From Cognaticolwellia mytili (GTDB lineage: Bacteria; Pseudomonadota; Gammaproteobacteria; Enterobacterales; Alteromonadaceae): 64,000 nucleotides of DNA. Shown piece after piece: positions 54,222 to 58,685 of the stretch; the stretch's first letter is position 1, and each line of letters opens with the position of its first letter. A model generated the notes under the pieces. The model was not told the origin of the DNA. It did no database searches and saw nothing but the letters and a program-made list of their open reading frames with translations. The stretch lies in the NCBI RefSeq assembly GCF_002104475.1, contig NZ_NBOF01000002.1, positions 806,001 to 870,000 of the forward strand. Reading direction: 5' to 3'. The position numbers and the translations under genes were made by a program.

Positions 54222-55145
54222 CTATTTGCCAAGCTCTGCCAAGACATTCAAGCTAGGAACAAAAAAAGCGGCACCAGTTTCAGCCTGGGTATATTTAAGC
54301 ATATGGTCACTATGGCCGTTTTCATCGCCAACAATCATACTCGCTAACATTAATTCAAATGGCTCTGGCGAATGGCAATAAGAAACAAAGAATAACCCCT
54401 GTAGCTTCATATCACCATACGGCATGCTTTGACGTAATATTTCAATACTTTTACCGTCACTATCTTTCAGATTGACACGCTTGATATGTGAAGTTGGCGC
54501 TTTATTTTCTTCTGAATATTCTTCATTGTTTACTTTAGTACGAGCAAATACATCTTCTTGGTCTTTGACCTCTAGAGAATTCCACAAGTTTAAATTATGG
54601 CGATAACGCTGAATATGAAGATAGCTGCCTGCGGAAAACTCTGCGTCTTGTTCTTCGTTTATTAACGCAATTTCACGACGGTGATACCCTTGTGGATTTT
54701 CCGTCCCATCAACAAAACCCGTTAAATCTCTACCATCTAAAAAGCGAAATGCACGGACTTGCTCAACTAATTCAACGCTATCTGCCAACAACTCACAGAC
54801 TTTCGTCGCAACAATATGGTTTACATCTCCACGATCACTACGAATTTCAATGTAAATATCGTAATTACATATTGGCGCAATGCGATCATCTGAGGCCATC
54901 TCAGGAAACGGTCTTAGATGTTTAGGGCGACCTTTTGGATAGATTTCGTCCCAATAATTAGTCCCTATAGCAATAACACCAGCAAGATTAGCTTCAGAAA
55001 AACGATCAGCATATTTATCAAATAATGCAGGTAAGTGTGATAGCGCCTGACGAATAAATGAATTATTGTCATCTAAAGCGTTAAATAATAAATAGTACCC
55101 GTGAAGGCTTGGCTCTGCACAAACACCAAACTGCTCTCTAGCCAT
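54222..55145 (-). CDS. DyP-type haem peroxidase
   Basis: Dye-decolourising-type peroxidase, class B/YfeX-like, probably cytosolic because no signal peptide is present. The start is taken at ATG 55145 (MAREQFGVC); an upstream GTG at 55157 is in frame. The 307 residues carry the GxxDG-type distal motif in GFVDGTENPQG with the catalytic Asp, and the proximal haem histidine in SHIKRVN. E. coli YfeX has 299 residues. No encapsulin gene is adjacent. Confidence 0.93.
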   Translation of the reverse strand: MAREQFGVCAEPSLHGYYLLFNALDDNNSFIRQALSHLPALFDKYADRFSEANLAGVIAIGTNYWDEIYPKGRPKHLRPFPEMASDDRIAPICNYDIYIEIRSDRGDVNHIVATKVCELLADSVELVEQVRAFRFLDGRDLTGFVDGTENPQGYHRREIALINEEQDAEFSAGSYLHIQRYRHNLNLWNSLEVKDQEDVFARTKVNNEEYSEENKAPTSHIKRVNLKDSDGKSIEILRQSMPYGDMKLQGLFFVSYCHSPEPFELMLASMIVGDENGHSDHMLKYTQAETGAAFFVPSLNVLAELGK

Positions 55146-55157
55146 AAAGTTATCCAC

Positions 55158-55757: not shown

Positions 55758-56813
55758 TTAAACGAATGGTTTTGCTAACGTGTTAAGTCGCTCACTTAAC
55801 TCATTACCCACTTTAATGTTATTCGATGAGCCTTGAACAGCAGATTGTGCGCCGTCAATAATAATTCCCATGCTTTCTTTCATCGCTGATAACATCAATA
55901 GTTGCTCTTTAGTACATGCACTCACTTTAGAGCCTAAATCATTAAACTCCAATATTTTTATTGAAGCTAACTTTGCCAAATTGATTGCGCCTTCTTCGCC
56001 TTTGCTATTACTTTCTAATGTCGATGACATATCTTCCGCAAATTGTACCGAGCGTGTCGATAACTCAGACTCCGTAATAGAGAGCACTTTAATCAAGCTA
56101 TTAATTTCACTAGCACTTTCACCTGCCTTTTGAGCTAACACTTTGACCTCGTCCGCTACAACAGCAAAACCACGCCCAGCTTCACCAGCTCTTGCAGCTT
56201 CTATTGCTGCATTTAAAGCGAGTAAGTTAGTTTGATCTGAAATAGCAGTAATGGTGGTAGCGATAGTATTTATTGAATTAAATTGCTGCTTAAATTCTCT
56301 GATCTTCTCTGATAGCTCAGTGGCCCAGCTAGAGGCTTGCGTCGCTTGCTCAACCAAATCATTGACTTGCGTTGTTAACTGCGAAAAATCACCATCAAAA
56401 CTAGCCAGCCCTATCATAAGTTTATCGGTATAAACTTCAATGTTACCCGCAGCCAATGAAACCTCATTGGCATTTTCTTGAGTTTTTTCAGCAAATTCAA
56501 CCCTGGCTTTAGAAGCCTTGTTAACTTTACTTGCGGTTGTCGATACTTGTGTGCCTAATTGTTGTAATTGCTTAAATTCCGTGAAATCAAAAACCTGATT
56601 AACTTGTTCAACAGCCAATTCTTTAGGTTGGCTGTTGCTAAGCCTACCAACTGAGTAGACAACAAATGGAACAACATAAGATAAACACAAAGGAATAAGC
56701 TTTAGTATTTGATCACCAAAAATAGCACTAAATTGATTGATTAGATTCAAAACACTACCGACAATCAATGCAACTAGTAGTGCTTTTGGTAAAATACTCA
56801 AAAGTTTAGACAT
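55758..56813 (-). CDS. Chemoreceptor with NrtS-like membrane domain
   Basis: A 351-residue methyl-accepting protein without a periplasmic sensor. Two closely spaced transmembrane helices (about 9-30 and 38-58: [20 protein letters not shown], then [19 protein letters not shown]) resemble NrtS, a small two-helix nitrate/nitrite transporter. A cytoplasmic helical region and the signalling hairpin ([20 protein letters not shown]) follow. No HAMP is evident. Next to amtB-glnK it probably links a nitrogen-related signal to chemotaxis. The leader carries six TTAAC repeats. The NrtS likeness is recalled, not searched. Confidence 0.85.
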
Positions 56814-56826
56814 ATAACAACCTAAA

Positions 56827-56856
56827 TTAACTTAACTTAACTTAACTTAACTTAAC
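56827..56856. repeat. Pentanucleotide microsatellite (TTAAC)6
   Basis: Six uninterrupted TTAAC units (GTTAA on the coding strand) from 56827 to 56856. They sit between a probable promoter (-35 TTGATA 56887-56882, -10 TTTATA 56864-56859, 17-base spacer) and the chemoreceptor ATG at 56813, that is, in the 5' leader. Confidence 0.9.
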
Positions 56857-56858
56857 TT

Positions 56859-56887
56859 TATAAAAGTATACATCAACTTATTATCAA
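56859..56887 (-). promoter_or_regulatory. Candidate promoter of the NrtS-like chemoreceptor gene
   Basis: -35 TTGATA and -10 TTTATA with exactly 17 bases between them on the minus strand, directly upstream of the TTAAC repeat. Confidence 0.55.
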
Positions 56888-56952
56888 AAATCGTAATTTA
56901 ATTTTCAGTAAATAATGATTTTAAGAGCACTATTTCTATATCAATCCCTTAA

Positions 56953-58218
56953 CTATCCACGGGTAAACTCAGGATAAGCTTCCATACCACAATCTGATTT
57001 ATCAACCCCTTCATACTCTTCTTCGGCGCTAACTCTAATGCCCATCACTTGCTTGAGAATAAACCAAACGACTAAGCTCGTTGAGAATACCCAGATGAAA
57101 ATAGTTACCGCACCAATCAATTGCCCGGTAAAGGTTGATGCACTGTTAGTCACTGGGACCAATAACAGACCTAATAATCCGACTACACCATGCACAGAAA
57201 GAGCACCGACTGGATCATCAATTTTTAATTTATCTAAACTGATAATTGAAAACACAACAACAATACCTGCAATAGCACCAAACAAGGTTGCTTGCATAGG
57301 CGTAGGTGTTGATGGCTCTGCAGTAATTGCTACTAATCCAGCTAAAGCGCCGTTTAACGCCATGGTTAAATCCGCTTTTTTAAAGAGTAATTTAGCTAAC
57401 ACTAATGCGGCTACAGCGCCTGCTGCAGCTGCTGCATTAGTGTTGAGAAACACCATAGCGACTGAATGGGAACTGGCAATATCACCAAGCTTTAATACTG
57501 AGCCACCATTAAAGCCAAACCAACCCATCCATAAAATGAATGTACCTAACGTTGCCATTGGTAAGTTTGAACCTGGAATAGCATTAACTCGACCATCAGC
57601 GCCGTATTTTCCTCTACGAGCACCTAGTAGCAAAACCCCTGCTAGTGCAGCCGCAGCGCCAGCCATATGGACAATCCCTGAGCCAGCAAAGTCAGAAAAA
57701 CCTAAATCAGCTAATATATAAAGACCAAACACCGAATTACCACCCCATGTCCAACTACCTTCCATCGGATAGATAACACCGGTCAGCACTACTGCGAAAG
57801 CTAAAAATGCCCATAACTTCATACGTTCAGCAACTGCGCCAGAAACAATCGACATTGCCGTGGCAACAAATACTACCTGGAAGAAAAAGTCAGACGCCGC
57901 TGAGTATATTGCCGCACCGGTAAAGCCATCTTCTCGCGCAGAAAAATCAGCTAATACTTTCGCTGGATCGACCGTTTCGATACCAGATAAAAACATGCCG
58001 CCACCATACATAATGTCGTAACCGACAAATAAGTACATCATGCAAGAAATGGCATAAAGCGCGACATTCTTAGTTAAAATTTCAGTGGTATTTTTAGCGC
58101 GTACCAAACCCGCTTCTAACATGGAAAATCCCGCTGCCATCCACATCACTAGAGCACCACAAATCAGGAAGTAAAAAGTATCCATGGCATACTGAAGTTG
58201 AAAAATATTTTGTTCCAT
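56953..58218 (-). CDS. amtB: Ammonium transporter AmtB
   Basis: Trimeric inner-membrane ammonium channel. The 421 residues contain eleven predicted helices and family motifs: AAGFSMLEAGLVRAKNTTEI near the start, GSWTWGGNSVFG, the DFAGSGIVHMAGAAAALAG segment with a conserved pore residue, and HGVVGLLG. There is no clear signal peptide, and the opening is close to YfdC-free Amt proteins of marine Alteromonadales. It starts 10 bases after glnK and is under its promoter; GlnK blocks AmtB when nitrogen is plentiful. Confidence 0.96.
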   Translation of the reverse strand: MEQNIFQLQYAMDTFYFLICGALVMWMAAGFSMLEAGLVRAKNTTEILTKNVALYAISCMMYLFVGYDIMYGGGMFLSGIETVDPAKVLADFSAREDGFTGAAIYSAASDFFFQVVFVATAMSIVSGAVAERMKLWAFLAFAVVLTGVIYPMEGSWTWGGNSVFGLYILADLGFSDFAGSGIVHMAGAAAALAGVLLLGARRGKYGADGRVNAIPGSNLPMATLGTFILWMGWFGFNGGSVLKLGDIASSHSVAMVFLNTNAAAAAGAVAALVLAKLLFKKADLTMALNGALAGLVAITAEPSTPTPMQATLFGAIAGIVVVFSIISLDKLKIDDPVGALSVHGVVGLLGLLLVPVTNSASTFTGQLIGAVTIFIWVFSTSLVVWFILKQVMGIRVSAEEEYEGVDKSDCGMEAYPEFTRG

Positions 58219-58228
58219 TATCTTGCTC

Positions 58229-58567
58229 CTATATCGCTTCTACGTCTTGTTCGCCAGTACGAATACGTACTGCTTGCTCAAGGTCATAAACAAATATTTT
58301 GCCGTCACCAATCTTTCCGGTGTGGGCTGCTTGACTAATAGCGTCAACAAGTCGCTGAACAATGTCATCATTGACCGCTATTTCAAGCTTCACTTTTGGT
58401 AGAAAATCAACTTGATATTCCGCACCACGATATAGCTCGGTATGACCTTTTTGACGACCAAAGCCTTTCACTTCACTGACGGTTAATCCTTCGACACCAA
58501 TTTCAGAAATGGCTTCTCTGACATCGTCTAGTTTAAAGGGCTTTATAATTGCACTAACTAATTTCAT
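58229..58567 (-). CDS. glnK: PII nitrogen regulatory protein GlnK
   Basis: Trimeric PII signal protein, 112 residues. The T-loop ([20 protein letters not shown]) contains Tyr51, the site uridylylated by GlnD, and the B- and C-loops KIGDGKIFV and RIRTGE are present. Pairing with amtB marks it as GlnK rather than GlnB. A sigma-54-like promoter 34 bases upstream and NtrC-like sites suggest induction under nitrogen limitation. Confidence 0.96.
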
Positions 58568-58600: not shown

Positions 58601-58618
58601 ATCAATCCTCGTGCCAAA
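58601..58618 (-). promoter_or_regulatory. Sigma-54-like promoter of glnK-amtB
   Basis: Minus strand TTGGCACGAGGATTGAT: a perfect -24 box (TTGGCACG) and a -12 box TTGAT in place of TTGCA, with the correct 10-base GG-to-GA step. The -12 C-to-A change would weaken it. Confidence 0.65.
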
Positions 58619-58670: not shown

Positions 58671-58685
58671 GCACTATTACAGTGC
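58671..58685. promoter_or_regulatory. NtrC-like binding site
   Basis: GCACTATTACAGTGC is a perfect 5-5-5 inverted repeat of the NtrC type (GCAC-N7-GTGC) about 75 bases upstream of the -12 element. A further half site TGGTGCA lies at 58711-58717. Confidence 0.55.

Follow-up and report, generated by a model that had tools for sequence, protein, structure and literature searches.

The window, by which we mean the whole 64,000-nucleotide stretch of the Cognaticolwellia mytili contig that was analysed, carries on its minus strand three genes in the order glnK, amtB, chemoreceptor. The first-pass annotation had placed the receptor gene directly downstream of glnK-amtB on the same strand, and this is where it lies, with a gap of 139 nucleotides after amtB. 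The features of the locus, from the highest coordinates to the lowest, are as follows.

58671..58685, minus strand: NtrC-like palindrome, beginning 118 nucleotides before glnK
58603..58616, minus strand: sigma54-like element, beginning 49 nucleotides before glnK; its -12 part reads TTGA, against the usual TTGC
58229..58567, minus strand: glnK, P-II signal protein, 112 amino acids
56953..58218, minus strand: amtB, ammonium transporter of the marine subtype, 421 amino acids (TIGR03644, 681 bits)
56819..56858, minus strand: array of the pentanucleotide AACTT, about 8 copies with 91% match, 6-45 nucleotides before the receptor start codon
55758..56813, minus strand: NrtS-MCP fusion gene, 351 amino acids (open reading frame list, domain and NrtS profile matches)
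56640..56789, minus strand: NrtS-like two-helix membrane unit, residues 9-58 (profile, alignment and hydropathy)
56496..56543, minus strand: conserved motif of NAxxVNxAS type, residues 91-106, where the signalling coil begins next to the membrane
56109..56303, minus strand: signalling hairpin tip region, residues 171-235
55806..55853, minus strand: conserved motif of AxxGSxxN type, residues 321-336, close to where the signalling coil ends
54222..55157, minus strand: Dyp peroxidase gene

The AACTT array stands directly before the receptor start codon, and slippage within it could tune expression.

The receptor belongs to the methyl-accepting chemotaxis proteins (MCPs) by virtue of its signalling domain (PF00015, E 1.3e-28 in a Pfam scan), the tip of which is conserved in the alignment. 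A sequence search of solved structures with the full receptor gives 13 sequences, chains of MCPs and aerotaxis receptors that match in the signalling part. Two matches to CheA (PF02895) score over the cut-off in the window genome, so that a signalling partner is at hand. The Pfam scan of the 351-residue protein finds no HAMP domain and no ligand-binding or sensor family up to E 1, nor, at the same limit, the PilJ domain that would mark it as a receptor of McpN type. Hydropathy peaks (19-residue window) are confined to the first 58 or so residues, with a best value of 2.3, and do not exceed 0.9 past residue 70; the loop between the two membrane helices is about ten residues long, which leaves almost no extracellular loop. 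Two earlier claims, namely that the receptor lacks a periplasmic sensor and that a two-helix unit (residues about 9-58) is its entire membrane part, are both borne out by these results.

NrtS is a small stand-alone protein. It was reportedly described by Maeda et al. in 2019 as a nitrate/nitrite transporter. The resemblance of the membrane unit to NrtS, also pointed out in the first-pass annotation, holds up in a profile search: residues 1-70 match the NrtS family (NCBIfam NF038050) with 28.2 bits and E 1.3e-6, over the curated cut-off of 25 bits, and the whole receptor scores slightly below that cut-off (24.3 bits, E 2.1e-5). At E up to 1, the 4.5-Mb window genome contains no NrtS match besides the receptor (27.3 bits); other membrane helices of this genome, therefore, give no comparable match. 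NF038050 is matched by all 11 fusion hairpins scanned, and profile-profile comparison of 11 fusion hairpins with 15 stand-alone NrtS proteins gives a probability of 99.8% and E 8e-28. Pfam offers no convincing model for the hairpin (three families among 11 members, each in one or two of them, best E 0.00087), and the N-terminal profile yields weak matches among solved structures searched by sequence (best E 0.13). The receptor, with its 351 residues, is a fusion and not a small stand-alone protein, and its relatives have split and stand-alone forms.

The transporter-receptor hybrid proposed earlier is real as an architecture, and it is represented by a recurrent clade of fusions instead of a single case. 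NrtS matches (E up to 0.01) occur in 28 of the 247 genomes of the order sample, and fusions in four (G000, G217, G197 and G165, the last cut by a contig end before the tip). The family sample of 196 genomes contains 47 with an NrtS match and nine with a fusion (G000, G374, G389, G280, G282, G325, G363, G400, G407); for the class sample of 369 genomes the corresponding numbers are 26 and five (G000, G006, G536, G556, G673). A named collection, in which 196 of 241 candidates were confirmed, was analysed in its best 80 of the 196, and 17 of these are fusions, including L094, whose sequence breaks off ahead of the tip. They come from Cellvibrionaceae, Agaribacter, Vibrio (four records), Endozoicomonas sp. 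G2_1, Psychromonas (two), Aliiglaciecola, Saccharophagus, two other Alteromonadaceae, Glaciecola, MedPE-C88, and Roseibium (two). The named set overlaps with the genome samples (for example, L094/G165, L101/G325, L098/G006). The fusion proteins are short, about 345-385 amino acids. Several candidates were dropped along the way: L024, where a 655-residue frame resembles an EIIC-EAL protein, L026-L029, which are spurious or too weak, and the match in G401 (L071), which has an internal stop. A 183-residue NrtS protein (L097, 7962-8513) shows likenesses of both MCP-coil base motifs and no tip, and is perhaps a tipless relative.

A tree of the signalling domain, which has a small outgroup sample and several long branches, the window's included, unites 26 fusions in one clade (97/94), with the two soluble MCPs of split pairs (see below) as the sister group, as against nine other MCPs; L206, for which the frame chosen had a wrong start, and L207, which had no frame that passed the filter, were excluded from this tree and from the conservation count. 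The clade spans Alteromonadaceae, Psychromonas, Vibrio, Cellvibrionaceae and Roseibium, and the window receptor falls together with the fusions of Cellvibrionaceae and Agaribacter (98/92), apart from Roseibium. The tree of the NrtS unit of about 50 residues (51 columns; L004, L005, L038 and L052 removed by the length filter) is unresolved, with 7 of 59 branches starred, and the fusion label needs seven changes on it, so that this tree is neutral on a single origin of the fusions.

The receptor gene sets the window apart from the congeners. In all 16 other genomes of the genus that were examined, the Dyp peroxidase gene comes directly after a marine-type amtB, and no MCP gene intervenes. A terminator-like hairpin (by our own criteria) follows amtB in 13 of the 16, and by the same criteria the window has no such hairpin in its amtB-receptor gap. 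We scanned the region before glnK with loose versions of the sigma54 and NtrC consensus motifs. In 17 of 17 genomes, the window included, the sigma54-like element lies 49-52 nucleotides and the NtrC-like palindrome 117-121 nucleotides before glnK. Since each motif alone would be expected 0.3 to 0.9 times per scanned window by chance, the weight lies on the conserved position of the sites. The receptor gene, placed after amtB where most congeners have a terminator, is likely to be read through from a putatively nitrogen-controlled glnK promoter.

The reading that we favour, with a probability of about one half, is that the gene encodes an NrtS-module chemoreceptor that is made under nitrogen limitation and senses, probably, nitrate or nitrite. 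The two-helix module of NrtS type would replace the usual periplasmic sensor in a distinct clade of chemoreceptors. Read-through from the glnK promoter of NtrC/sigma54 type would cause the receptor to be made when nitrogen is limiting. The module would most likely bind nitrate or nitrite, and it may also let these ions through; altered packing of the oligomerised hairpins would then be relayed through the short linker and the MCP coil to CheA, and the output would be taxis for a nitrogen source. The computations themselves establish the homology, the architecture, the clade, the repeated pairing of NrtS with MCPs, the gene's presence here as opposed to the congeners, and the promoter-like sites; from these, co-transcription, ligand and signalling step are inferred.

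The neighbourhood of glnK-amtB might also be an accident, a mobile receptor gene without any nitrogen function having landed there. The absence of the gene after amtB in the congeners fits such an event, and so does the NrtS family search, in which none of 7 congeners has an NrtS match. The receptor's relatives, moreover, occupy many unrelated contexts. By our count the fusions stand in 17 contexts: the window, Roseibium, Psychromonas, MedPE-C88, Agaribacter, Cellvibrionaceae, Vibrio Of7-15, Vibrio S9_S30/penaeicida, Endozoicomonas G2_1, G363/G400, Aliiglaciecola, Saccharophagus, M269, G374, Glaciecola G407, G389 and G280. The MedPE-C88 and Saccharophagus contexts were seen mainly on one side, and the fusions of G536, G556 and G673, read within 1.5 kb only, stand outside the 17. 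The contexts were searched by BLAST with six queries (AmtB, GlnK, NirB, NirD, NasA, CobA). Two of the 17, the window and Roseibium, are beside amtB-glnK. The G389 fusion is divergent from nirB-nirD-nasA-cobA (genes named by eye, nirB also found by search), and in the M269 context a P-II gene is about 1.7 kb away. The first-pass annotation had also called for a survey of such fusions and their neighbours, and the answer is mixed, in that the fusions form a recurrent family with its Roseibium members beside amtB, and 14 of the 17 contexts contain no relative of AmtB or of nitrate reduction detectable with the six queries (13 have no match to any query), which counts against the favoured reading. 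Against an accident speaks the fact that a distant member of the clade repeats the neighbourhood in Roseibium; by a hand estimate, the chance of at least one amt neighbour among the 16 other contexts is about 2%. We consider an accidental neighbourhood rather unlikely. Two further observations on gene surroundings, with genes named by eye, are that a Psychromonas fusion (L068, L069) is divergent from a response-regulator-like gene followed by a PAS-like gene, and that NrtS or NrtS-MCP genes in L090, L092 and L093 lie near DUF692-, DUF2063- and DoxX-like genes.

The two named Roseibium fusions adjoin an amtB whose product is 54-55% identical to that of the window, with glnK beyond it, in tail-to-tail arrangement. 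Among 45 genomes of the genus there are 11 matches, and all 10 clear fusions adjoin amtB, six of them lying between two amt genes; the eleventh, L202 of Roseibium G472, matches weakly, has an internal stop and is counted apart. Because the receptor gene faces amtB in Roseibium, the two share no transcript there. The amtB link of the fusions is, in part, replicated. It could be taken to mean that the receptor reports ammonium or nitrogen status through contact with AmtB or GlnK, the NrtS hairpin serving as an interaction surface with no nitrate site. The recurrence of the neighbour in two distant settings, and the frequent position between two amt genes in Roseibium, would be expected of such a receptor. 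An MCP tip near amtB is otherwise absent from 45 marine-type amtB loci (within 1.5 kb, 0 of 29 order-sample loci and 0 of the 16 congeners; 69 genomes of the order sample have an amtB match, loci were available for 30 of them, and leaving out the window gives the 29). Most fusion contexts, however, have no AmtB relative nearby, the split pairs L075 and L081 lack one throughout their 16-kb loci, and most fusions keep the NrtS signature residues, and we regard contact with AmtB or GlnK as the basis of signalling as unlikely.

The association of NrtS with MCPs extends to separate genes. In genome G016 (L075), a frame for an 85-residue NrtS overlaps a frame for a 297-residue soluble MCP by 8 nucleotides, and in G296 (L081) the NrtS and soluble MCP frames are 29 nucleotides apart. 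In the order and family samples together, 49 NrtS loci were counted, 15 of them with an MCP tip within 1.5 kb. In 14 of the 15 it is downstream on the same strand, seven MCPs being at a spacing of soluble type and seven at that of ordinary MCPs of about 550 residues (as read in L085, L087 and L088); the remaining one, G280, has a fusion as its neighbour, located upstream. Chance would give about 0.2 for 49 loci, given 2 tips per 372 kb off-centre in 32 long loci; the 14 loci are drawn from six genera and for this reason are not independent. The 49 are L002-L059 minus four fusions (L021, L022, L054, L056) and five dropped loci; they include L012, a fusion cut by a contig end, and omit 21 family-sample matches, of which 12 were read separately. 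The matches left out of locus reading were those of G278, G307, G294, G321, G300, G299 and G344 and two of G261. Outside the 49, a 547-residue MCP is directly downstream of NrtS in G408:C13 (L083). The tip pattern, IEAARAG, does not pick up variants, for instance the IESARAG of L095, and hence all MCP counts are lower bounds, in test and controls alike. With the same limit of 1.5 kb, no MCP tip accompanies NrtS in any of 22 class-sample loci or of 63 loci from the named collection that are not fusions; this absence of the NrtS-then-MCP order counts against the reading that we favour and suggests that the association is limited to this part of Gammaproteobacteria. Among other NrtS proteins, those of L013, L014 and L016-L019 (about 108-205 residues) have additional C-terminal tails, and such NrtS genes of one genus (L076, L078) are just upstream of a sugar-transporter-like gene.

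NrtS signature residues of both helices are common to most of 20 fusions and 56 stand-alone rows (the latter include L094, actually a cut fusion). G19, L22, I25, N26, Q27, P49 and V52 are invariant across the 17 fusions of alignment A3; the search pattern for the named collection favours positions 17-26, and does not favour positions 27 and 45-52. In the wider set of 20 fusions, the hairpin of L062 alone departs, at I25, N26 and Q27. A lysine at position 41 is present in 44 of 56 stand-alone rows as against 5 of 20 fusions. Both facts count against the favoured reading. At L062 (3986-5626), a stand-alone NrtS gene directly follows the fusion with the unusual hairpin, and a mixed oligomer is conceivable. 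Among 8 Roseibium orthologues the identity is 0.84 in the membrane unit, 0.72-0.73 in the coils, 0.88 in the tip and 0.39 in the linker; four ordinary MCPs, taken as control, have 0.74-0.80 in their transmembrane helices, 0.74-0.76 in the coils and 0.95 in the tip, so that the argument from conservation of the membrane unit is a modest one.

These data bear on the notion that the NrtS-derived hairpin does no more than anchor the protein in the membrane, or senses membrane state or energy in a general way, and that the signal comes in through the cytoplasmic coil. It would suit a hairpin with so little outside the membrane, and helix conservation of this order is seen in ordinary MCPs too, but N26, Q27 and P49, invariant in the 17 A3 fusions, are also common in stand-alone NrtS, separate NrtS genes repeatedly precede MCPs, including MCPs of about 550 residues with membrane helices of their own, and the Pfam scan up to E 1 reveals no cytoplasmic sensor domain. 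We give this notion a low probability.

Of the 20 fusion-bearing genomes searched for NirB, 18 have a match; the exceptions, G280 and G407, count against the favoured reading. In the family sample, NirB occurs in 38 of the 47 genomes that have an NrtS match as compared to 79 of the 149 that have none (Fisher p 6e-4, relatedness ignored), and enrichment for fusions alone is unclear, at 7 of 9 versus 117 of 196 in the whole family sample, which likewise weighs against that reading. The window genome has nirB and, both named by eye, a nasA-like gene with a NarK-like open reading frame of 489 amino acids beside it, so that its nitrate uptake need not rely on the receptor. A nitrogen theme for the fusion family is supported by the Roseibium amtB neighbours, the single nirB-nasA neighbour, and the NtrC- and sigma54-like sites before glnK. 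That the NrtS module works as a nitrate/nitrite permease and controls CheA activity directly through its occupancy or transport cycle, which would make the protein a chemotactic transceptor, we hold to be quite improbable. NrtS is said to be a hexamer, and if it is, its six hairpins would correspond in number to the six chains of the MCP trimer of dimers.

NrtS-MCP receptors, as we favour seeing them, may be an undescribed way of steering toward a nitrogen source. If so, they would constitute a class of chemoreceptors with a minimal transporter unit of about 50 residues as the sensor, offer a clean test system for the question of whether binding, permeation or transport state drives the chemotaxis kinase, and connect motility in marine bacteria with the response to nitrogen limitation. 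Open-licence PubMed Central papers, a scope that leaves absence unproven, yielded none on NrtS together with methyl-accepting chemotaxis; co-mentions of NrtS and chemotaxis there concern grazing or root exudates, T cells, and smoking.

With NrtS, the window hairpin shares the two-helix unit, the signature GxxLxxINQ followed by TYxVPYxV, and an N-terminal profile match over the cut-off; it differs in being fused to a chemoreceptor output, with transport putative, and in belonging to a set of fusions from which the lysine of the stand-alone proteins is mostly absent. The signalling hairpin tip and coil are those of ordinary MCPs, but the window receptor lacks a HAMP match and a ligand-binding domain and is short. 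McpN, a chemoreceptor of PilJ type, is reported to mediate nitrate taxis under nitrate starvation by binding nitrate in its periplasmic domain (PMC6381276). The window receptor would similarly serve nitrate taxis under starvation; unlike McpN, it has no periplasmic domain. In KsAmt5, an ammonium transporter is fused to a histidine kinase, and the Amt domain binds ammonium without efficient transport (PMC8534201). The transporter family is a different one, and there is a kinase where the window protein has an MCP, but both appear to be cases of a transporter fold turned into a sensor, with ligand binding putative for the window receptor.
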